Source: a virus. Taken from it: a stretch of DNA of 24,859 nt. Numbering within the stretch: the stretch's first letter is position 1; every line of letters begins with the position of its first letter. The stretch is taken from positions 1 to 24,859 of the IMG/VR virus record IMGVR_UViG_3300025769_000790; one strand, written 5' to 3'. Shown piece by piece: positions 201 to 12,785 of this stretch. The position numbers and the translations under genes were made by a program. A model generated the notes under the pieces. That model was not told where the DNA came from. It searched no databases and was given only the letters and a program-made list of their open reading frames with translations.

Positions 201-250
201 TGTGACTACGGATCAGGAGGTTTGGGGTTCGACTCCCTACGGGTGTACCA
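201..250 (+). tRNA. 3' half of tRNA-Arg(ACG); probable attP core
   Basis: The segment has exact tRNA 3'-half geometry: anticodon loop CTACGGA (206-212, anticodon ACG), the 3' strand of the anticodon stem, a 5-nt variable loop, a T arm with loop TTCGACT between GGGG and CCCT, seven acceptor bases, A73 and an encoded CCA ending at 250. The 5' half (acceptor strand, D arm with its AGCTCAG-type sequence) is absent upstream, so this is not a functional gene. A tRNA 3' end next to a tyrosine integrase is the usual core attachment site of a temperate element. Because the tRNA 5' half is missing while int lies on the 3' side, the sequence reads as attP of a non-integrated genome rather than an attL junction. 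Pairing at the first two anticodon-stem positions is poor (204 faces G215), which may mark the left edge of identity with the bacterial gene. Confidence 0.75.
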
Positions 251-296
251 TTACTAATACACTATCTGCTTCTCGCTGAGTAAGAAAGACTTAGTT

Positions 297-1355
297 ATGA
301 AGCTTGAGTGTAAAATAAACCTATTTAAGCGCGGAAAAACCTACTTTGCGAAATCCACCGTTTTGGGTACAGTCCAGACGGTCTCCACGGGGGTGCGCTG
401 CAAAAAAACGGCAAAAAAAATTGCCGAGCAAAAATTGACCCTCCTCCTCCAGCAGTCAGACTCCGTCTGGCGCGTTCGTTACCTCGTCGATGAGTTCACC
501 CAAAACGCCTTCCACATTCGACGGGCGACCATCAGCGGGGTGCGTGGGTTCGTCGCCATGTTTCTGAAAACACTGGACCTATCGTGGGATCACCCCGTAG
601 AGGAGGTGTTCACCAAAGATAACGCCAACGCATTCTTCCGTTTACGGCTCGATGGGGCAGCTCATTCAGCGAGAACCACGGCATCGATCACGGCGAACAC
701 GATCCTACGCTCAGTCAAACAGCTGTTCAGCGACCGCATGGTGGACACATATTCCAGGTCACTGCCCGATTGCGTAGACGGTTTCAAAGCAGTCAAGCCA
801 CTGCCAGTCAGGCAGAAACAATACACCGTCTCCGATAAAAAGGACAAAATGCTCAAGGTCATCCAACAGTGCGAAGCACTCAACGAGTCGAATCCTGGCG
901 CATACCTCGCGTATTGGCTCATGCTGCACTGCGGTCTGCGGCGCGGAGAAGCCGCCGCTGCTCGCTGGTCATGGATCACTCCTCACGGTCTCATGGTTCA
1001 GGAGGAGGAGGATTTCAGCACCAAAAGCGGCAGGTCGCGCCTGATCCCGCTTTCCAGTGCCCAGATCGACCACCTGAAGACCTTTGAGGAGGAGCGAGTC
1101 CACATACTGCCCGGCCCCATGACGGCGCGTCTGAGAGACCATTCTGACGTTGTCGCAAAAATCATTCGTGCAGCAGGTTTCACAGGATCCAAATCAGTCC
1201 ACGAACTTCGCAAATACTTTGGCGCAAACGTAGCGACCCAGCTGGGGTTGTTTGCTGCTCAAAAGTATCTGGGTCATCACTCCCCGGAGATCACCTCGAG
1301 ATACTATGCGGATCTGATCGAACAAAAACCCGTGGAGATTAAAATCCTCGCTTGA
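297..1355 (+). CDS. int: Tyrosine site-specific integrase
   Basis: Phage integrase of the tyrosine recombinase family (352 aa), expected to recombine the phage attachment site with the host tRNA-Arg gene. The C-terminal catalytic domain carries the expected residues: R215 in GLRRGE, the H302-E-L-R305 motif, H327 in LGHH, and the nucleophile Y336 nine residues later in SRYY. The N-terminal 150 residues contain a basic arm-binding-like start and a SAM-like core-binding region. The gene starts 46 bp after the CCA end of the tRNA fragment and reads in the same direction, typical of tRNA-targeting elements. The Shine-Dalgarno is weak (AGAAAG). Length and motif spacing are normal, with no sign of truncation. 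The specific target is inferred from the adjacent tRNA fragment. Confidence 0.95.
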   Translation: MKLECKINLFKRGKTYFAKSTVLGTVQTVSTGVRCKKTAKKIAEQKLTLLLQQSDSVWRVRYLVDEFTQNAFHIRRATISGVRGFVAMFLKTLDLSWDHPVEEVFTKDNANAFFRLRLDGAAHSARTTASITANTILRSVKQLFSDRMVDTYSRSLPDCVDGFKAVKPLPVRQKQYTVSDKKDKMLKVIQQCEALNESNPGAYLAYWLMLHCGLRRGEAAAARWSWITPHGLMVQEEEDFSTKSGRSRLIPLSSAQIDHLKTFEEERVHILPGPMTARLRDHSDVVAKIIRAAGFTGSKSVHELRKYFGANVATQLGLFAAQKYLGHHSPEITSRYYADLIEQKPVEIKILA

Positions 1356-1858: not shown

Positions 1859-1929
1859 GGGGTTGGACAGCTTTTGTCCTACGGCTACTGTTCATATAAA
1901 CAGCATGAAGGTTCACCCCTCACTCATAG

Positions 1930-2169
1930 CTATTCTGCGCCGAATTGCTCAAGAAGAGCACTTAACTCCGCAGCATATTGTGAGTCGGGTGATTGAGCAA
2001 TCTGACGCTTTGCTTCCGCCAGAATCAACAGCTCCAGAACCTGGGTGCGGGATCTTCGAGATTTCTTTGCCAGGCGCGAAAGAGCCTCCTTCGCGTTGGA
2101 ATCAATCCAGGCATTGAAATTGGCTTTGTTTTTTGCTCTGACAGGTAAACTCACGCTCACAACATACAT
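1930..2169 (-). CDS. Ribbon-helix-helix DNA-binding protein, putative repressor
   Basis: The only convincing leftward gene of the window (79 aa). An N-terminal strand (YVVSVSLPV) and later helices (SNAKEALSRLAKKSRR and SRTQVLELLILAEAKRQ) fit a CopG/Arc-type ribbon-helix-helix fold, preceded by a basic linker. It is transcribed divergently from the rightward early genes, and 45 bp separate its start from three 11-bp repeats at 2221-2253. A regulator facing an operator array is the usual form of a lysogeny switch, so I infer it represses the rightward promoter and possibly its own. No clear Shine-Dalgarno precedes the ATG and the leader is very A+T rich. An overlapping + strand frame over the same bases is less protein-like. 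Confidence 0.6.
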   Translation of the reverse strand: MYVVSVSLPVRAKNKANFNAWIDSNAKEALSRLAKKSRRSRTQVLELLILAEAKRQIAQSPDSQYAAELSALLEQFGAE

Positions 2170-2214
2170 TATCGAACGAAAAGAAAAAGATAGAAAAATA
2201 ATTTTAATTTTCTA

Positions 2215-2253
2215 TTGACCTAGGCGCATACTAGGCGCATATTAGGCGCATGA
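2215..2253 (+). promoter_or_regulatory. Early promoter overlapped by three 11-bp operator repeats
   Basis: Three tandem copies of TAGGCGCAT begin at 2221, 2232 and 2243, exactly 11 bp apart, so they lie on one face of the helix. Each is a near-palindrome around GCGC. A sigma70-like promoter overlaps them: TTGACC (2215-2220), 17-bp spacer, CATATT (2238-2243). A bound protein would therefore occlude the spacer and -10. RHH repressors such as P22 Arc and Mnt bind adjacent sites about a helical turn apart, and RHH genes lie on both sides, so one or both are the likely ligands (inference). Confidence 0.65.
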
Positions 2254-2417
2254 ACAAACACGGAAAGCCAGAAAAACACATAACCCTTTCAAGTGGTGGA
2301 ACGACATTCAATCCTGAATATGTGAAATGGGCACAGGTAAACATTAAAGATAAACCCGCACCAGTATTAGCTCCTTTTTTTAAATCACAATATGAATGGC
2401 TGAAATCTGGAAGATAA
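2250..2417 (+). CDS. Small early protein (55 aa), unknown
   Basis: First rightward frame of the putative early operon, 55 aa, starting MNKHGKPEKH and ending WLKSGR. I do not recognise it. Its ATG begins inside the third operator repeat (2243-2251) and about 7 nt after the proposed -10, so its mRNA could be leaderless; no Shine-Dalgarno could fit. The position in the switch region suggests a regulatory role (Cro- or antirepressor-like), but there is no motif to support this. The frame could also be fortuitous; codon content is compatible with coding. Confidence 0.45.
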   Translation: MNKHGKPEKHITLSSGGTTFNPEYVKWAQVNIKDKPAPVLAPFFKSQYEWLKSGR

Positions 2418-2434
2418 ACGAACAGCAATCCAAC

Positions 2435-2452
2435 GGGGCGGGAAACCGCCCC
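2435..2452 (+). other. GC-rich hairpin with GAAA tetraloop
   Basis: Perfect 7-bp stem GGGGCGG (2435-2441) / CCGCCCC (2446-2452) closed by a GAAA tetraloop, 18 bp after the 55-aa gene. There is no T tract, so it is not a standard intrinsic terminator; an mRNA stabilising or processing element is possible. Confidence 0.55.
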
Positions 2453-2477
2453 ACAACTCAGAAAGACTAGCACCCAA

Positions 2478-2496
2478 TAGGCGCACAGTATCCACA
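2478..2496 (+). promoter_or_regulatory. Fourth operator copy with adjacent DnaA-box-like site
   Basis: TAGGCGCAC at 2478-2486 matches the three operator repeats at 2221-2251 in its first eight bases. It is followed at 2488-2496 by GTATCCACA, which differs from the DnaA box TTATCCACA at one position. Both lie just before the ATG of the small RHH gene at 2498, so this gene may have its own repressor site. The DnaA reading is weak because a single 8/9 match can occur by chance. Confidence 0.4.
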
Positions 2497-2497
2497 T

Positions 2498-2632
2498 ATG
2501 AAGATCAAAAACATTCAAATCCCAAATGACCTACACCAGCAGATCAAACTGCTGGCGGTTCAGAAGGGCATCACCATTCAGGCCTGGGTCGCTGACACGC
2601 TCCAGGCCGCCATCAACAGAAAACGAAAATGA
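2498..2632 (+). CDS. Small ribbon-helix-helix protein (44 aa)
   Basis: A 44-aa protein with the compact Arc/CopG layout: strand KIKNIQIPNDL, helix 1 HQQIKLLAVQKG, and helix 2 TIQAWVADTLQAAI, ending in a basic tail NRKRK. It is about the minimum size of an RHH dimer subunit. The gene lies downstream of an operator-like copy at 2478 and overlaps the next gene (ATGA at 2629-2632), so translation is probably coupled. Being co-directional with the early genes and opposite to the RHH gene at 1930-2169, it may be the Cro-like partner of the switch (inference). Too short for most automatic gene calls. Confidence 0.6.
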   Translation: MKIKNIQIPNDLHQQIKLLAVQKGITIQAWVADTLQAAINRKRK

Positions 2633-4904: not shown

Positions 4905-5405
4905 ATGAAAATAATTGGACTTTGCGGAAAAAAACGCTCGGGGAAATCATCCGCCGCCGAGCACCTACAACACATTATCGGCGATCGGTGCTACCGATTT
5001 GCGTTTGCCGACCAGATCAAAGCTGAGGTCGGGAAGATATTCGGCAAATACCGAGAGGACCGCAAAGAGACTCTGCGCCCGGTATACCAGAGTGTGGGGG
5101 AGGCAGCGAAACAGCTGTTCGGCACAACGGTCTGGGTAGACAAACTCGCCGACAAACTCAGTCGCCTCGAGGATCCGGACGCAGTTGTTGTCATCGACGA
5201 TCTGCGATTTCCCATCGAGTCCGAGTGGGTTCGATCCATGGGCGGAGTCGTCTGGCGGATCCGCCGCCCGGCTACGGACTGCATTGAGGACTCGCATGTC
5301 TCGGAGACCAGCGTCGATTTAATTAGGGCAGACGAAATTGTGTTCAACGATTCAACACCATTAAATTTCTATGACCGCATCACTAAGCTATACAACTGTC
5401 ATTGA
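4905..5405 (+). CDS. Deoxynucleoside monophosphate kinase
   Basis: A 166-aa P-loop kinase resembling phage dNMP kinases (T4 gp1-like group), which phosphorylate dNMPs to dNDPs for phage DNA synthesis. Walker A is G8-KKRS-G13-K14-S15. The conserved later segments are visible: FADQIKAEV, VVVIDDLRFPIESEW (D98/D99, R101), RIRRP, the D129-S-H131 motif and a final EIVFND turn. The open frame extends upstream to 4854, but that part overlaps the hairpin and has no similarity, so the ATG at 4905 next to the first beta strand is chosen. The 3' end overlaps the DnaA-like gene by 35 nt. Confidence 0.8.
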   Translation: MKIIGLCGKKRSGKSSAAEHLQHIIGDRCYRFAFADQIKAEVGKIFGKYREDRKETLRPVYQSVGEAAKQLFGTTVWVDKLADKLSRLEDPDAVVVIDDLRFPIESEWVRSMGGVVWRIRRPATDCIEDSHVSETSVDLIRADEIVFNDSTPLNFYDRITKLYNCH

Positions 5406-5745
5406 GCGCATGGCGCAGAGCATAGGAGCTGAATTCCAGGTTGATACTTCGTTGATCATGAGCAGATCCAGAATCGAACAAGCCGCAATGGCTCGCCAGG
5501 TCTTGATGGTCATGCTTTGTCGAAAAGGAATGAGTGCTCACCAGTGTGCGCGGGAATTGAACCGCGACCACACAACTATTACTCACGCTCACAAAAGCGT
5601 TCAGAACAGGCGCGAGACAGACAGGCACTTCGACGAGGTATTCCGCCGAATCGATTCCGAGTTTCGCGAGATGCCATCAATACACCAACCCAAAGCCTGG
5701 GAGATCTCATCGATTGGAGACCTGGCTCAACCCTACTATTTTTAG
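5371..5745 (+). CDS. Stand-alone DnaA domain IV (DnaA-box-binding) protein
   Basis: A 124-aa protein that is essentially the C-terminal DNA-binding domain of DnaA. YTTVIERMAQSIGAEF corresponds to its first helix, SRSRIEQAAMARQVLMVML to the next, and RELNRDHTTITHAHKSV (R65-D-H-T-T) to the signature helix-turn-helix that reads DnaA boxes. No AAA+ domain is present. The start at 5371 is preferred over 5410 because the first domain helix begins near residue 7. It lies three genes upstream of an AAA+ loader and just before the initiator gene, so it probably helps recruit or compete with host DnaA at an origin (inference). A transcriptional role is the alternative. Confidence 0.85.
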   Translation: MTASLSYTTVIERMAQSIGAEFQVDTSLIMSRSRIEQAAMARQVLMVMLCRKGMSAHQCARELNRDHTTITHAHKSVQNRRETDRHFDEVFRRIDSEFREMPSIHQPKAWEISSIGDLAQPYYF

Positions 5746-5936: not shown

Positions 5937-6733
5937 TGAAATACATTAAACTCTACTTCAATGACTGGGCTATGAACACCCGTGTCCTGACCCTTGAGGA
6001 AAAGGGTGCATGGGTAGACCTGATCGCCATCCTGTCGAGCAGCGAAAAGCCCGGAGAGATCACTCTTTGCGCCCGTTCTTTGGGTAGGCTTTGGGGTGTG
6101 ACACCGAGGAAAGCGAGCACCTTTCTGGAGTCCATCAGCGGTGCCGGGTTAATCACTTTTGAGAAAAATTCGGAAAAATTCCGCATAAATTGCAGCGAAA
6201 TCGAAAAAGCAAATTCAAAATATTCTGAATTTGTTTTGTCTCGGAAATCTAGCGTAAACCGTTCTTCATCAACAAAAGCATCGAGCATAATGAAGTCATC
6301 ATGCGAGCATAATGAAGTCATAATGAAGTCATCATGCGAGCATAATGCTCCCAATATTATAGTTAATAGTAGTACTACTACTACTACTAAGAACTCATCT
6401 AGTAGTAGAGGGGCAAAAGGTAAGTCGAAAGCTGCATCACAGTCGAAGCCTCCGACCCTGGAGGAGGTTTTGTCATTCTGCGAAAAACGCAGAATTCCTT
6501 CATCCACCGGAGAGGCTTTTTTCAATTATTACGAGGGTCACAACCTGTGGCTGAACAAACACAAGGAACCCATCAAATGGTGGTTCGTCATCCAGAACGA
6601 ACCATGGAAATCCAATCATGAACACAACAGCAATCGTAACGGATCTTTTCGGCCAATCAGTCGAAACACAGGAACAGCAAACGAGACAGACGGCAGTGAA
6701 TACGCAGAAGTGGGCAGAGTGGTTCGGCATTGA
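5936..6733 (+). CDS. DUF1376-type replication initiator/replisome organiser
   Basis: A 265-aa protein with an N-terminal winged-helix region typical of the DUF1376/YdaU-like group (IKLYFNDWAMNTRVLTLEEKG, then RSLGRLWGVTP and ISGAGLI), found in phage replication proteins. The middle (about 100-160) is a Ser/Thr-rich linker containing two 11-residue repeats (IMKSSCEHN...) encoded by an 11-bp DNA repeat array. The second domain (about 170-225: LEEVLSFCEKR, FFNYYEGHNLW, WWFVIQNEPW) resembles the helicase- or loader-contacting part of such proteins, and the tail RNTGTANE..Y..VGRVV is a conserved kind of ending. It overlaps the DnaC-like gene by 116 nt. By analogy with lambda O it would bind its own gene as the origin. 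Confidence 0.75.
   Translation: MKYIKLYFNDWAMNTRVLTLEEKGAWVDLIAILSSSEKPGEITLCARSLGRLWGVTPRKASTFLESISGAGLITFEKNSEKFRINCSEIEKANSKYSEFVLSRKSSVNRSSSTKASSIMKSSCEHNEVIMKSSCEHNAPNIIVNSSTTTTTKNSSSSRGAKGKSKAASQSKPPTLEEVLSFCEKRRIPSSTGEAFFNYYEGHNLWLNKHKEPIKWWFVIQNEPWKSNHEHNSNRNGSFRPISRNTGTANETDGSEYAEVGRVVRH
6287..6352 (+). repeat. Six tandem 11-bp iterons, candidate replication origin
   Basis: Six contiguous 11-bp units start at 6287, 6298, 6309, 6320, 6331 and 6342. Units 1, 3 and 4 are ATAATGAAGTC, units 2 and 5 are ATCATGCGAGC, and unit 6 is ATAATGCTCCC. They form two 33-bp blocks and are followed by an AT-rich low-complexity tract (about 6351-6392, including repeated ACT and AGT triplets). Iterons plus AT-rich DNA inside the linker of the initiator gene are the layout of the lambda origin within gene O. 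Origin function is inferred. Confidence 0.65.
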
Positions 6734-7238
6734 GCTGGTCGATGACAACGTCGAGCGCATGGTTCGTGCAGCAGCTGAGTGGGCTATTGCCGTCAAAGCT
6801 GGAGACAAACCTCGCTGGCTATCCCTGCTGGGGAGCAGCGGAGCTGGAAAAACACACATTGCCAAACGCCTTTGGGCGTGGCTTTCAAAACGACCAGACT
6901 TCCAGGGACGGGCAAACTACCTGCCGCAGTTCGTTTATTGGCCAAAACTCATGGATGACATGCGAACTGATGCCAGCCTCTACAGCCGATTCGGCGACAT
7001 GCAACGCTGGCGATACCTCGTCCTCGACGATGTAATGGCCGAACGTCAGTCCGACTGGACGCTGGAGAAGATCAACACACTGCTCGGGTGCCGTGTAGGC
7101 AAATGGACAATCCTCACCAGCAACCTGTCCATGATGGGCATCGCCAAAACAGAGAAACGCATCGCCTCCCGGCTCATCCGCGACAAAGGCATCGTCGCCG
7201 ACATACAGACCACAGACTACAACCTGCGAAACAGATGA
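6618..7238 (+). CDS. DnaC-like AAA+ helicase loader
   Basis: A 206-aa AAA+ ATPase of the DnaC/IstB type, expected to load the replicative helicase onto the origin. Walker A is G72-SSGAG-K78-T79, Walker B is YLVLDD (D137, D138), sensor 1 is T167-S-N169, and the arginine-finger segment is RIASRLIRD (R181/R185). The N-terminal 60 residues would hold the partner-binding part. The first 116 nt overlap the initiator gene in another frame, and no later ATG would keep the N-terminal domain, so the long overlap looks real. With the initiator and DnaA-domain protein it completes a theta-type initiation set; no helicase or polymerase gene is in this window. Confidence 0.85.
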   Translation: MNTTAIVTDLFGQSVETQEQQTRQTAVNTQKWAEWFGIELVDDNVERMVRAAAEWAIAVKAGDKPRWLSLLGSSGAGKTHIAKRLWAWLSKRPDFQGRANYLPQFVYWPKLMDDMRTDASLYSRFGDMQRWRYLVLDDVMAERQSDWTLEKINTLLGCRVGKWTILTSNLSMMGIAKTEKRIASRLIRDKGIVADIQTTDYNLRNR

Positions 7239-7585: not shown

Positions 7586-8296
7586 ATGGAGAAAAGACCA
7601 ATGAAGAGAAAGGGAGGGAACGGTGGACTCACCCGAAAACGAATCAACGATGACCAACGCGCAATCGCCATCAAAGACACCGCAGGGCAGTCATGTGGGC
7701 TGGCTAAAGCACTCGCTCCACATCAGGACGCAATCTCAGCCATATGCCCTCAGTCAGCGATCGATGCCAGCATGGACGGTGTCAGATCCAATCAGACATA
7801 CAACCGGGAATCAGTCATGCCAATCCTTCGAATGATCGCCATCGGTATGACTCAGGAAGACGCCGCTGCACTTGTTCACATCACTCCGAGCACACTCAGC
7901 AAATGGAAAAGTAAACACGCGGACTTCGAGACCGCATGCGAAAGGGCAAAGTCGATCAACAAAAACCTGCTGCTTAACGTGATCTACCAGGGAATGGAGA
8001 AGAGTCCGAGGCTGGCGTTGGACCTGTTGGAAAGGGTGCACCCGAAGGAATATGCTCAGACGAAGAGGGTGGACGGACAGATGAATCACACCCACGCTCA
8101 CGGTCCATCTGCTTTACTACAAACGCTTCACGCCGAACGATTGAAGGTGGATCAGGCACGAACGTCTGATGACCAATCAGTCGTCCTGGACGCTCAAGTC
8201 GTTGATGGAGAGCAGAAGCAGCTCAATCCAGGTGGAAAAACAGCGGAAGGGGGTGGTGGGGAGGGGTCCGTCCCCAGCGGAGGTCAGGACATTTAA
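7586..8296 (+). CDS. Putative terminase small subunit
   Basis: A 236-aa protein with a helix-turn-helix at about residues 85-110 (IGMTQEDAAALVHITPSTLSKW) followed by a helical segment (HADFETACERAKSINKNLL, MEKSPRLALDLLERVHP) as seen in phage small terminase subunits, which recognise the packaging site and hand DNA to the large subunit. The long N-terminal extension and the Gly/Gln-rich C-terminus are low complexity. A strong GAGGGGG ribosome site precedes the ATG at 7586. The large subunit lies 4.5 kb downstream, an unusual separation, so a transcriptional regulator is the main alternative. Confidence 0.6.
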   Translation: MEKRPMKRKGGNGGLTRKRINDDQRAIAIKDTAGQSCGLAKALAPHQDAISAICPQSAIDASMDGVRSNQTYNRESVMPILRMIAIGMTQEDAAALVHITPSTLSKWKSKHADFETACERAKSINKNLLLNVIYQGMEKSPRLALDLLERVHPKEYAQTKRVDGQMNHTHAHGPSALLQTLHAERLKVDQARTSDDQSVVLDAQVVDGEQKQLNPGGKTAEGGGGEGSVPSGGQDI

Positions 8297-9985: not shown

Positions 9986-10173
9986 TACGCATCGTGGTTG
10001 AGGTGTCTGAGGACGCAAATGGCGTTGCCTTTCAGAAATACGTCCAGGCATGTGGGGCGACACCTGGTGAAGTTGAGGTAGGAGAGGGGGTTGATGCGAT
10101 CATTGACGAATATTTGGACACCCTCGAAGAGACGGACGATGTCATCGATGCTCAAACATTTGCGCGGAACTAG
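9982..10173 (+). CDS. Small acidic protein (63 aa)
   Basis: A 63-aa, strongly acidic protein (EVEVGEGVDAIIDEYL, ETDDVIDAQTF) with a short beta start MIRIVVEVSED. A strong GGAGGGGAGC ribosome site and an ATGA overlap with the upstream gene support translation. No family recognised. Small acidic phage proteins can act as DNA mimics against host defence, but the sequence alone does not show this. Confidence 0.55.
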   Translation: MIRIVVEVSEDANGVAFQKYVQACGATPGEVEVGEGVDAIIDEYLDTLEETDDVIDAQTFARN

Positions 10174-10183
10174 CGCGAGACCT

Positions 10184-11230
10184 ATGGATAAACGGCTCAT
10201 CATACGTGGTCAGCTCGGGGATAACTCGAGCTACGATTATCACTCGCGCATCATCATCGATGGCATGCTGGAGCGTGGATGGGATCTCTGCGTGGTGCCA
10301 TACAATTCGGACGCATGGTCACGTGTCCTCGATGAGCGGTATGAGCGGATCATTGCGCGTCAACCAAAATGGGACGCTCCTACCCTCATCATCCATCCAC
10401 CCAAACAAACACCCGACGATCCTGACCGGACGGTGTATTCGACCATGTGGGAGACCACTCGGATCCCCCAGGCGTGGATCCGAAACCTGAACAGGTGCCG
10501 TGCCGTGATTGTTCCATCAAACCCGAACATTATGACGTTCTCGGCTCAGGGAGTAACGTCTCCCATGCATTGTGTGCCGTTCGGGGTGGATACATCAGTG
10601 TTCCAATCCAGGTCATTTGTCAGGCGAAGCACCGTTGTGTTTGGGACATCGGGGATATCCCGTCATGGTTGGCCGCGCAAAGGGTTTGACGAGGTCGTCG
10701 ATGCATTCCTTCTGGCGTTCCCGGAAGGCAACGAAGACGTGGAACTTCGCATTAAGTGCTACCCGAGGGATCCGATGCCGTCATGGACGGACCAGCGCAT
10801 CGTGCGCGATGAGGGGGAGTGGACAAAAACGGATTTGGCGGCGTGGTATCACTCCATCGACTGCTACGTGTCCATGAGCAAAGGTGAAGGTTTTGGATTG
10901 ATGCCGCTCGAGGCTATGGCATGCGGACGACCATGTGTGATCCCGGCCTGGTTTGGACCGGAAGCTTATGCGAAGGAATACAATTCGTTCCTGGTGGATT
11001 ACAAGCTTGTCCCGGCGACGAATTATTACGAGGGACAGGGACTGTGGTGTGATCCATCGGTGGAGAGTGCTGCGACGATTATGCGCCAGATAGTAAAGCG
11101 TCCATTGATGATTAACGCAAAGGCGCGTCAAGCCCGGATCGATGCGTCACGGTTTACCTACGCACGCATGGTTGATGGTTACATTGATGTCATCAATAAA
11201 TATTTTGGGAACAAACCGTATGGATATTGA
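10184..11230 (+). CDS. GT-B glycosyltransferase, GT4-like
   Basis: A 348-aa glycosyltransferase. The C-terminal donor-binding half has the retaining GT-B EX7E motif E235-GFGLMPL-E243 followed by AMACGRPCVIP, preceded by the KGFDEVVDAF helix; the N-terminal half has Rossmann-like strands (RAVIVPSN, VPFGVDTSVF). Donor and acceptor are unknown. The ATG at 10184 is chosen because upstream codons overlap the preceding gene and lack similarity. It opens a three-gene sugar cassette placed between the terminase genes. Likely roles are modification of virion proteins, host surface glycans or phage DNA; the sequence does not decide between them. Confidence 0.85.
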   Translation: MDKRLIIRGQLGDNSSYDYHSRIIIDGMLERGWDLCVVPYNSDAWSRVLDERYERIIARQPKWDAPTLIIHPPKQTPDDPDRTVYSTMWETTRIPQAWIRNLNRCRAVIVPSNPNIMTFSAQGVTSPMHCVPFGVDTSVFQSRSFVRRSTVVFGTSGISRHGWPRKGFDEVVDAFLLAFPEGNEDVELRIKCYPRDPMPSWTDQRIVRDEGEWTKTDLAAWYHSIDCYVSMSKGEGFGLMPLEAMACGRPCVIPAWFGPEAYAKEYNSFLVDYKLVPATNYYEGQGLWCDPSVESAATIMRQIVKRPLMINAKARQARIDASRFTYARMVDGYIDVINKYFGNKPYGY

Positions 11231-11268
11231 TGAATTAGTCACGGGAGTCTGCTACTGGAGGTCACACA

Positions 11269-11871
11269 ATGATTTTTAGACCAGGCACATGGGACCAGGC
11301 AATCTTCGACTGCGTCTACACGGACAACGAATACCGGGTTAATAATTTTCTCGGAAAAACCATCGTTGATGTGGGGGCACATATCGGTTCGTTCTCGCTG
11401 CTCGCTGCCCATAGGGGTGCATCCGTTGTCTACGCATACGAACCCAACAAACACAATTTTGAGATCCTGACGCAAAATGCTCTGGGAACTGTGGTTCGCC
11501 CGTGGAATAAAGGCGTTCATGCGGCGAGCGGTCTACACCTTCAAAGTATGCAGTGCAGCATGCCTGAGAACACAGGGGGGTGCCCGACAGTTCTGGATAG
11601 TGATGGGGACATTGAAACGGTTTGCATGAACGACATCATCGATCAGTTGGGGCACATCGACATCCTGAAGCTTGATTGTGAGGGTGCGGAATACCCGGCA
11701 TTACTGCACTGCACCAAACTGGATCGATTATCAGCTATCGTTGGCGAATACCACGGTCACGTAGAGCATACAATTGATGAGCTGAAGCATTACCTGAATA
11801 GTCACGGTTTCAGCGTGGGGCTGGAACCTACGGAAGGTGGACTCGGGCATTTCTTTGCTATTCGATTATGA
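11269..11871 (+). CDS. FkbM-family methyltransferase
   Basis: A 200-aa SAM-dependent methyltransferase of the FkbM type. Motif I is TIVDVGAHIGSFSLLAA (D34, G36, G40), the acidic ribose-binding residue is E58 in YAYEPN, and the family signature DILKLDCEGAEY spans 131-142. FkbM enzymes O-methylate small molecules and sugars, fitting a position between two glycosyltransferase genes. A GGAGGT ribosome site precedes the ATG by 7 nt, and the stop overlaps the next gene by ATGA. Probably methylates the sugar added by the cassette, capping it (inference). Confidence 0.85.
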   Translation: MIFRPGTWDQAIFDCVYTDNEYRVNNFLGKTIVDVGAHIGSFSLLAAHRGASVVYAYEPNKHNFEILTQNALGTVVRPWNKGVHAASGLHLQSMQCSMPENTGGCPTVLDSDGDIETVCMNDIIDQLGHIDILKLDCEGAEYPALLHCTKLDRLSAIVGEYHGHVEHTIDELKHYLNSHGFSVGLEPTEGGLGHFFAIRL

Positions 11872-12785
11872 TTATTACGGACCCCATACACGAATACAAC
11901 CCAGAGATCACCATCGATTGGCTTCGAGAGCACTGCCCGGTCGATCATCGATTTGATCGCTTAATGTCGATCGATCGATCTATCATACGATGTCGGGACG
12001 CATCGGCAACAATAAGTGCGTCACTGTTTAACCGGGACACGAATGATCCGACTGGGATGACCAGGACATCCGAACAAAATTTTCGAAAACGATATTTTGC
12101 GTCACTGATGAACAACATCCAGTGGCTAGAAGCAACCGACATGGGTTGTGATTTGTTCGTGGAACCCAGCATCGCAGATGAGGTGATGAGGCATGTCACC
12201 TCTGCGAAAGTGAACCTTCACATTATGGAGGAAAATTCCTTAGCCGCGACAGGAATGTATTGGAGATTTCTCGCGTTCGACATGGATGAGGAATGGAGAC
12301 CTGATCAGGTGGTTCTGAGTGATGTTGACATGGAGTGGGAGCATCACGTCCCCTTCCTTCTCGAGCACTGCCCGGTTGCTCCCGTCTTTTACGGCAGGTC
12401 TGAAGATCCGTTTTATGTGACGGATGATTGCTCGAAATACACCCCGATCAGCTGCGGGTATACGGCATTCGAGAAGTCTGCCCTCGATTGGAAGTTTTCT
12501 GAAATAGTCCCCAGGTTTTTTTATTATCAGTGCTACAAGCAGTTCTATGAGCCCCGCAACAAATGGAACGGACCGTACCCGCTAATGCCACACGGTTTTG
12601 GAAACACATGGAACCTGTACGGCAGCGACGAACGCTTCTTTGCTAAAGTGGTGTATTATTACCTGAAACGTAAGGGATGCTTAAACATGTTGGTTCAAAG
12701 GGAATGTTTTGACTCGCCCCACGCACCGGAAAAAGCGGACATGGAATTTACCGAGAAATTCGGAGGAAAAATCATCTGTGTCTAA
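11868..12785 (+). CDS. GT-A-like glycosyltransferase (DxD motif)
   Basis: A 305-aa protein without an obvious close family but with a GT-A-like centre: MYWRFLAFDMDEEWRPDQVV followed by L-S-D152-V-D154-M, a DxD metal/nucleotide-sugar motif at the end of a beta strand, as in transferases with a nucleotide-diphospho-sugar fold. The region 195-260 is rich in aromatic residues (PRFFYYQCYKQFYEP) and may bind the acceptor. It is coupled to the methyltransferase (ATGA) and to the large terminase gene (TAATG), so it is cotranscribed with packaging genes and likely expressed late. Enzyme class is inferred from the motif and context. Confidence 0.6.
   Translation: MIITDPIHEYNPEITIDWLREHCPVDHRFDRLMSIDRSIIRCRDASATISASLFNRDTNDPTGMTRTSEQNFRKRYFASLMNNIQWLEATDMGCDLFVEPSIADEVMRHVTSAKVNLHIMEENSLAATGMYWRFLAFDMDEEWRPDQVVLSDVDMEWEHHVPFLLEHCPVAPVFYGRSEDPFYVTDDCSKYTPISCGYTAFEKSALDWKFSEIVPRFFYYQCYKQFYEPRNKWNGPYPLMPHGFGNTWNLYGSDERFFAKVVYYYLKRKGCLNMLVQRECFDSPHAPEKADMEFTEKFGGKIICV

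Follow-up and report, generated by a model that had tools for sequence, protein, structure and literature searches.

Ribbon-helix-helix (RHH) proteins are familiar as antitoxins, as plasmid regulators and from the secondary immunity of phage P22; we know of no full primary phage switch built of them, and our literature searches retrieved none. In the case of Arc, RHH dimers bind to subsites spaced 11 bp apart. The P22 immI region also includes an antisense RNA, sar (PMC11016777). In coliphage 186, the repressor is inactivated via the LexA-controlled phage promoter of Tum/p95 and not by self-cleavage (PMC7708051), while the Apl operators of the same phage are repeats phased by 10-11 bp in the switch region (PMC7498355). 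As for GIL01, LexA, aided by gp7, represses the lysogenic promoter P1 of that phage (PMC4551915). The present work deals with the IMG/VR virus record IMGVR_UViG_3300025769_000790, the whole of which (24,859 bases) is hereafter called the window, and, in particular, with a locus that harbors two divergent RHH genes, an array of 11-bp-phased operators and a LexA-type box. On balance, we read this locus as a probable lysis-lysogeny switch run by RHH proteins and linked to the SOS response through an antisense LexA promoter, a reading drawn from the sequence.

Operators of the early promoter and the two RHH genes

The search for close relatives in IMG/VR retrieved only three records (L005, L006, and L007, of 25.6, 32.8, and 43.9 kb, respectively), sharing about 93-97% DNA identity with the window over most aligned stretches; they are referred to as the relatives and, together with the window, as the four phages. 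The features on which the analysis of the early region relies are the following:

1930 to 2169, minus strand: RHH1, a 79-aa RHH protein (Pfam RHH_1), presumed lysogenic repressor.
2190 to 2215, no strand: AT-rich inverted repeat ATAGAAAAATAA-tt-TTAATTTTCTAT, located in the divergent intergenic region, between RHH1 and P1 (P = 0.0015 in shuffles).
2215 to 2243, plus strand: early promoter P1, TTGACC-N17-CATATT (-35 at 2215-2220, -10 at 2238-2243).
2221 to 2230, plus strand: operator O1, TAGGCGCATA, in the -35/-10 spacer of P1; TAGGCGCACA in the relatives.
2232 to 2241, plus strand: operator O2, TAGGCGCATA, overlapping the -10 of P1; identical in all four phages.
2243 to 2252, plus strand: operator O3, TAGGCGCATG, overlapping the start codon at 2250; TGGGCGCATG in the relatives.
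2250 to 2417, plus strand: open reading frame (ORF) of 55 aa with its start at O3; transcription from P1 would make it leaderless.
2478 to 2498, plus strand: second operator site, TAGGCGCACA and then TATCCACATA at +11, before RHH2.
2498 to 2632, plus strand: RHH2, a 44-aa RHH protein of the early operon, presumed Cro-like (PHROG and structure matches).

A preliminary description of this DNA had reported three copies of TAGGCGCAT at exact 11-bp steps over TTGACC-N17-CATATT. This was borne out, the exact copies being at 2221, 2232, and 2243, with no other in the 24.9-kb window. Scored as three 9-mers, the triple has nine out of nine identical columns at one period, versus a maximum of six out of nine when the region was dinucleotide-shuffled 300 times, and elsewhere in the window the triple score never reaches 8/9. 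P1 is the sole sigma-70-like match in 1300-2760, with a score of 9/12, although matches of this score, taken alone, are at chance level. Since O1-O3 take up the spacer, run across the -10, and extend as far as the start codon, their occupancy should block P1. Moreover, the operator 10-mer TAGGCGCATA is a quasi-palindrome, TAnGCGCnTA, with eight of its ten positions symmetric, a shape that would fit one symmetric dimer per 10-mer, all of them on one face of the helix.

Concerning the fourth copy that had been placed before the second RHH gene, a site is indeed present at 2478, but it is not exact (TAGGCGCAC, one mismatch to TAGGCGCAT). In the relatives, the corresponding site is a full 11-bp-phased triple, TTTGCGCTTA/TAGGCGCAT(A/T)/TATGCATCTA, whose outer members match best on the other strand; such inverted members are expected for dimer sites. 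The 11-bp phasing is kept at both P1 and the site before RHH2 in the three relatives, and in each of the four phages the two best separate triple positions of the whole record are the P1 array and the site before RHH2. The phage has an integrase, and 11-bp direct repeats might, in principle, bind an excisionase or a recombination directionality factor (RDF) with a second role as repressor of early promoters, in the manner of Apl in phage 186. We consider this very improbable: Apl binds att, whereas no 11-bp array was found at attP among the top-scoring sites, so that the repeats do not share the att location typical of Apl/Xis operators; furthermore, the quasi-palindromic shape and the inverted members of the relatives fit a dimer and not monomers on direct repeats, and no Xis family match was retrieved among the proteins scanned, which cover part, not all, of the small ORFs.

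The leftward 79-aa RHH gene and the opposite rightward operon with a 44-aa RHH gene, both described previously, found support in Pfam, PHROG, and predicted models. RHH1 matches Pfam RHH_1 with 21.1 bits (cut-off 20.5; E-value 3e-4), and the helices of its predicted model match RHH structures, with a root-mean-square deviation of 0.5-0.7 to CopG and antitoxins (Foldseek E-values above 1, the strand being unmodelled in the monomer). RHH2 matches HicB-like (1.7e-5) and Arc-like (3.4e-3) PHROGs; its matches to Pfam HicB, CopG_antitoxin, and ParD fall below the cut-offs, and the top structures for its predicted model are StnY (CopG family) and Arc, with weak E-values. Both proteins display the profile of the RHH/CopG superfamily (a beta-strand and two helices), and neither of them matches the Arc or the Mnt Pfam family.

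A plus-strand ORF of 70 aa (1905-2117) overlaps RHH1 and was rejected as the main gene of this region, the substitutions fitting minus-strand coding. In the overlap, the RHH1 frame has six synonymous and seven nonsynonymous changes compared to G002, and six of the ten changes between the window and L005 are at RHH1 codon position 3. The strand of RHH1 thus has the better support as the coding one, most of the substitutions relative to L005 falling on its third positions.

The segment 2171-2228 shows no differences from L005 and L006 (nor from L007), against 27-31 differences across 410 compared bases. The AT-rich inverted repeat has the same sequence in all four phages. Given that it adjoins RHH1 and that the second array is directly upstream of RHH2, the arrays might bind RHH2 alone, as a CopG/antitoxin-like autoregulator, with RHH1 acting on separate operators such as this palindrome. 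This appears rather unlikely, since a lysogenic repressor is required at P1, and the array of P1, divergent from RHH1, is the only one that is strong in all the phages; besides, being located in AT-rich DNA, the palindrome could represent promoter elements. The binder is likely an RHH protein, with RHH1 as the proposed occupant of the P1 array in lysogeny. The 55-aa ORF between the operators is replaced in the three relatives by an unrelated 75-aa ORF, with both operator sites and RHH2 retained; therefore, the swapped gene is unlikely to set the operator specificity. The segment 2273-2475 is a swapped gene cassette with conserved operators on both sides.

As for a repressor of the lambda type, the search with the helix-turn-helix family HTH_3 in the four phages retrieved only the gene for the terminase small subunit (7586-8296 in the window), and profile searches for S24 and HTH_26 domains retrieved none in the same records. 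The statement that the window lacks a CI/Cro-type repressor therefore stands, and no canonical repressor emerged elsewhere in these phages; no lambdoid immC (CI/Cro) was found in the four related records, possibly incomplete, so that the absence of the repressor is strong and not final. The array, the conserved sites, the two RHH genes, and the lack of any detected CI/Cro-like or S24 repressor make an early switch operated by RHH proteins likely.

The predicted LexA-type promoter antisense to RHH1

Two features lie at the 3' end of RHH1 and on the opposite strand:

1864 to 1907, plus strand: predicted LexA-controlled promoter P_SOS, TGGACA-N16-TACTGT, with the box CTGTTCATATAAACAG at 1888-1903 and an ATG at 1905.
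1905 to 2117, plus strand: the 70-aa ORF, which runs antisense to RHH1 and is separated from the LexA box by 1 nt.

The box is located 26 bp past the stop of RHH1, between this gene and a convergent 158-aa gene. The sequence CTGTTC-N4-GAACAG is exact in the three relatives, the window version being CTGTTCATATAAACAG. The Verrucomicrobia LexA motif was defined here from genomes of the putative host family (see below), where the pattern TTGAC-N17-TACTGTTC-N4-GAACA occurs once each in five genomes out of 11, with no occurrence of the reversed pattern used as a control. Four of these matches precede lexA and one precedes a DNA polymerase IV-type gene, and in all of them a single base separates the 16-bp box from the ATG; these genes were identified by reading their translations and, in the case of lexA, also by the S24 domain. 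The window reads TGGACA-N16-TACTGTTCATATAAACAG-C-ATG at 1864-1907, which reproduces the arrangement at host lexA and pol IV in both the spacing and the placement of the ATG, and the layout across phages and host is T-G/T-GACA-N16-TACTGTTC-N4-GAACAG-N-ATG. Having the host box in a promoter context, P_SOS can be placed among putative LexA-regulated promoters, with one box mismatch in the window. With only one base between the SOS box and the start of lexA or of the pol IV-type gene, the leaders at the five host loci (L330-L334) would be very short or absent.

A palindrome between convergent genes, with a possible 6-bp stem, could also be a terminator or a chance hairpin instead of a LexA site, in which case lysogeny would not be linked to SOS. 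This is improbable, since no T-run directly follows the palindrome and the host lexA/pol IV layout is matched down to the position of the ATG. By its layout, the predicted promoter is directed rightward, antisense into RHH1 and on towards P1.

Instead of acting through antisense transcription, P_SOS might drive a protein anti-repressor, i.e., the 70-aa ORF, in the way of Tum of phage 186. In favor of this possibility, the ATG is as close to the box as it is at host lexA and at the pol IV-type gene, with one base in between, and the frame is open in all four phages; LexA-controlled anti-repressors are known, e.g., 186 Tum (PMC7708051). Conversely, the changes in the RHH1 overlap are all nonsynonymous in the 70-aa frame (zero synonymous versus ten nonsynonymous compared to G002), so that the protein bears no sign of conservation, and the ORF has neither a family match in the profile scans nor similarity to RHH2. 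We regard the anti-repressor as a real possibility, although one we would not put first. The 70-aa ORF was also considered as a third RHH protein and rejected, the profile comparison with RHH2 being negative.

Gene content, putative host, and distribution

The virus appears to be a temperate tailed phage. The record has, in order, an attachment site, a tyrosine integrase, the 158-aa gene of no assigned family, the leftward RHH1, and the rightward early operon, which embeds RHH2, an Erf-like annealing protein, an exonuclease, a RusA-family resolvase, a DnaA C-terminal-like protein, and a DnaC-like loader, with the packaging and head genes downstream. The elements related to integration are as follows:

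203 to 252, plus strand: attP core, whose 50 bp coincide with the 3' ends of Verrucomicrobia tRNA-Arg(ACG) genes.
297 to 1355, plus strand: tyrosine integrase (Pfam Phage_integrase, E-value 1.7e-11).

In four Verrucomicrobia assemblies, tRNA-Arg(ACG) carries an exact copy of the attP core at its 3' end, and in two of these genomes (L230 and L231) there are integrase remnants with 60-62% identity to the phage integrase, that of L230 being close to the tRNA-Arg(ACG) gene. On the basis of the attP/tRNA-Arg identity and of the remnants in genomes of that family, the host can be inferred to belong to Verrucomicrobiota, namely, to uncultured marine Verrucomicrobia. The remnants of L230 and L231 are traces of related prophages. 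A Bac_DnaA_C domain (the DnaA C-terminal DNA-binding domain, E-value 2e-11) is encoded at 5371-5745 and the DnaC-like loader downstream, at 6618-7238; between the genes for the small and large terminase subunits, at 10091-12785, some ORFs resemble, by eye, a glycosyltransferase and an FkbM-type methyltransferase. Neither the integrase nor RHH1 has a match among GenBank phage records.

Outside the three relatives, a distant RHH1 homologue was found in L008, near an integrase-like ORF and without the TAGGCGCAT array; no further relatives of RHH1 or RHH2 were retrieved from viral contigs, genome contigs, and 384 genomes of the class. The idea that TAGGCGCAT is a widespread operator was rejected, since the IMG/VR matches to TTGACNTAGGCGCAT lack a second exact copy at 11 bp, except for the phages of the window and L004. 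The latter (80.9-kb contig IMGVR_UViG_3300050821_003884) has, at 1557-1582, TTGACT-TAGGCGCATGATAGGCGCAT, with two copies of TAGGCGCAT 11 bp apart; no RHH_1 gene was detected in this phage, which is apparently unrelated to the window, and its pair is possibly due to chance. Triples of GGCGCA at 11 bp occur in 98 viral stretches and were discarded, those inspected outside the group resembling tandem or coding-type repeats, none of them with TA flanks and a promoter context. No operator pairs were found in 320 genomes of the host order.

The proposed switch and known systems

We propose the following scenario. In lysogeny, RHH1 would occupy O1-O3, one dimer per 10-mer and cooperatively every 11 bp, keeping P1 off; it would also occupy the second set of sites before RHH2, so that the early genes would be shut off, while LexA bound to P_SOS would keep this promoter silent. 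As self-cleavage through an S24 domain is not available to an RHH protein, DNA damage would be read separately, via LexA. Upon damage, LexA would be cleaved and P_SOS would transcribe the RHH1 gene in antisense, towards the early operon; RHH1 might then be lowered by the antisense RNA, by polymerase collision, or by the overlapping 70-aa product acting as an anti-repressor. The loss of RHH1 would open P1 and lead to the synthesis of RHH2, which comes first among the recognisable regulators of the lytic operon and may take over the same operators in a Cro-like manner. A more specific version, namely, that the sole immunity repressor is a non-cleavable RHH protein and that the promoter of host lexA/pol IV-type genes was copied in antisense into its transcription unit, the loss of LexA silencing the repressor by convergent transcription, is put forward only tentatively.

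Some data weigh against the whole scenario. The second operator site of the window is itself degenerate, and no clear promoter was recognised for RHH1. The LexA box of the window has one mismatch; the -35 of P_SOS is TGGACA/TGGACG, and its -10 is poor in the relatives. To these must be added the changes in the 70-aa frame reported above. The four phages are closely related, with about 94% DNA identity, so that conservation represents weak support by itself, and a wider family of RHH/operator switches was not found in viral contigs, genome contigs, and genomes of the host order.

If the scenario is true, an antisense LexA promoter would be a simple route of SOS induction for non-cleavable repressors, with a searchable signature (at the 3' end of a repressor gene, a LexA box with a start codon behind it), and this would be the first regulatory model of prophage induction in uncultured marine Verrucomicrobia.

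The use of RHH proteins as the primary immunity, proposed in the preliminary description, agrees with the phased operators in the early promoter, conserved in the four phages, and with the lack of CI/Cro-type genes; the resemblance to P22 Arc/Mnt holds only as a weak analogy. Like immI, the locus combines a divergent promoter region with a pair of small RHH regulators and with phased dimer sites. Unlike it, no C2/Cro-type gene was found here, whereas immI is a secondary region that modulates C2/Cro and controls ant; the operators are 10-mer triples with an 11-bp step, and the locus incorporates a LexA-type promoter. No ant-like family was detected among the proteins scanned in the window, which derive from part of its ORFs, and as for the Arc/Mnt family there is only the weak Arc-like PHROG of RHH2. 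We thus class the locus as a probable phage switch of the RHH type and not as a member of P22 immI, because of the lack of an Arc/Mnt family match, of a detected ant, and of a primary immC.

With 186 Tum/p95 the locus shares a LexA-controlled phage promoter, proposed here to counter a repressor without self-cleavage; Tum has a gene of its own and targets CI, whereas here the LexA promoter lies antisense within the locus of the presumed repressor, an RHH protein. In GIL01 (PMC4551915), host LexA is likewise part of the phage switch, whereas here LexA would guard the antisense promoter and the RHH proteins would guard P1. Finally, the 186 Apl repeats have a similar phasing at the switch, but they are direct repeats bound by a monomeric RDF and shared with att, while those of the window are quasi-palindromic and none was detected at att. 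By analogy, the functionally nearest systems would be P22 immI for the RHH pair and, for induction linked to LexA with the repressor left uncleaved, 186 Tum; neither of them joins primary repression by RHH proteins to an antisense LexA promoter.
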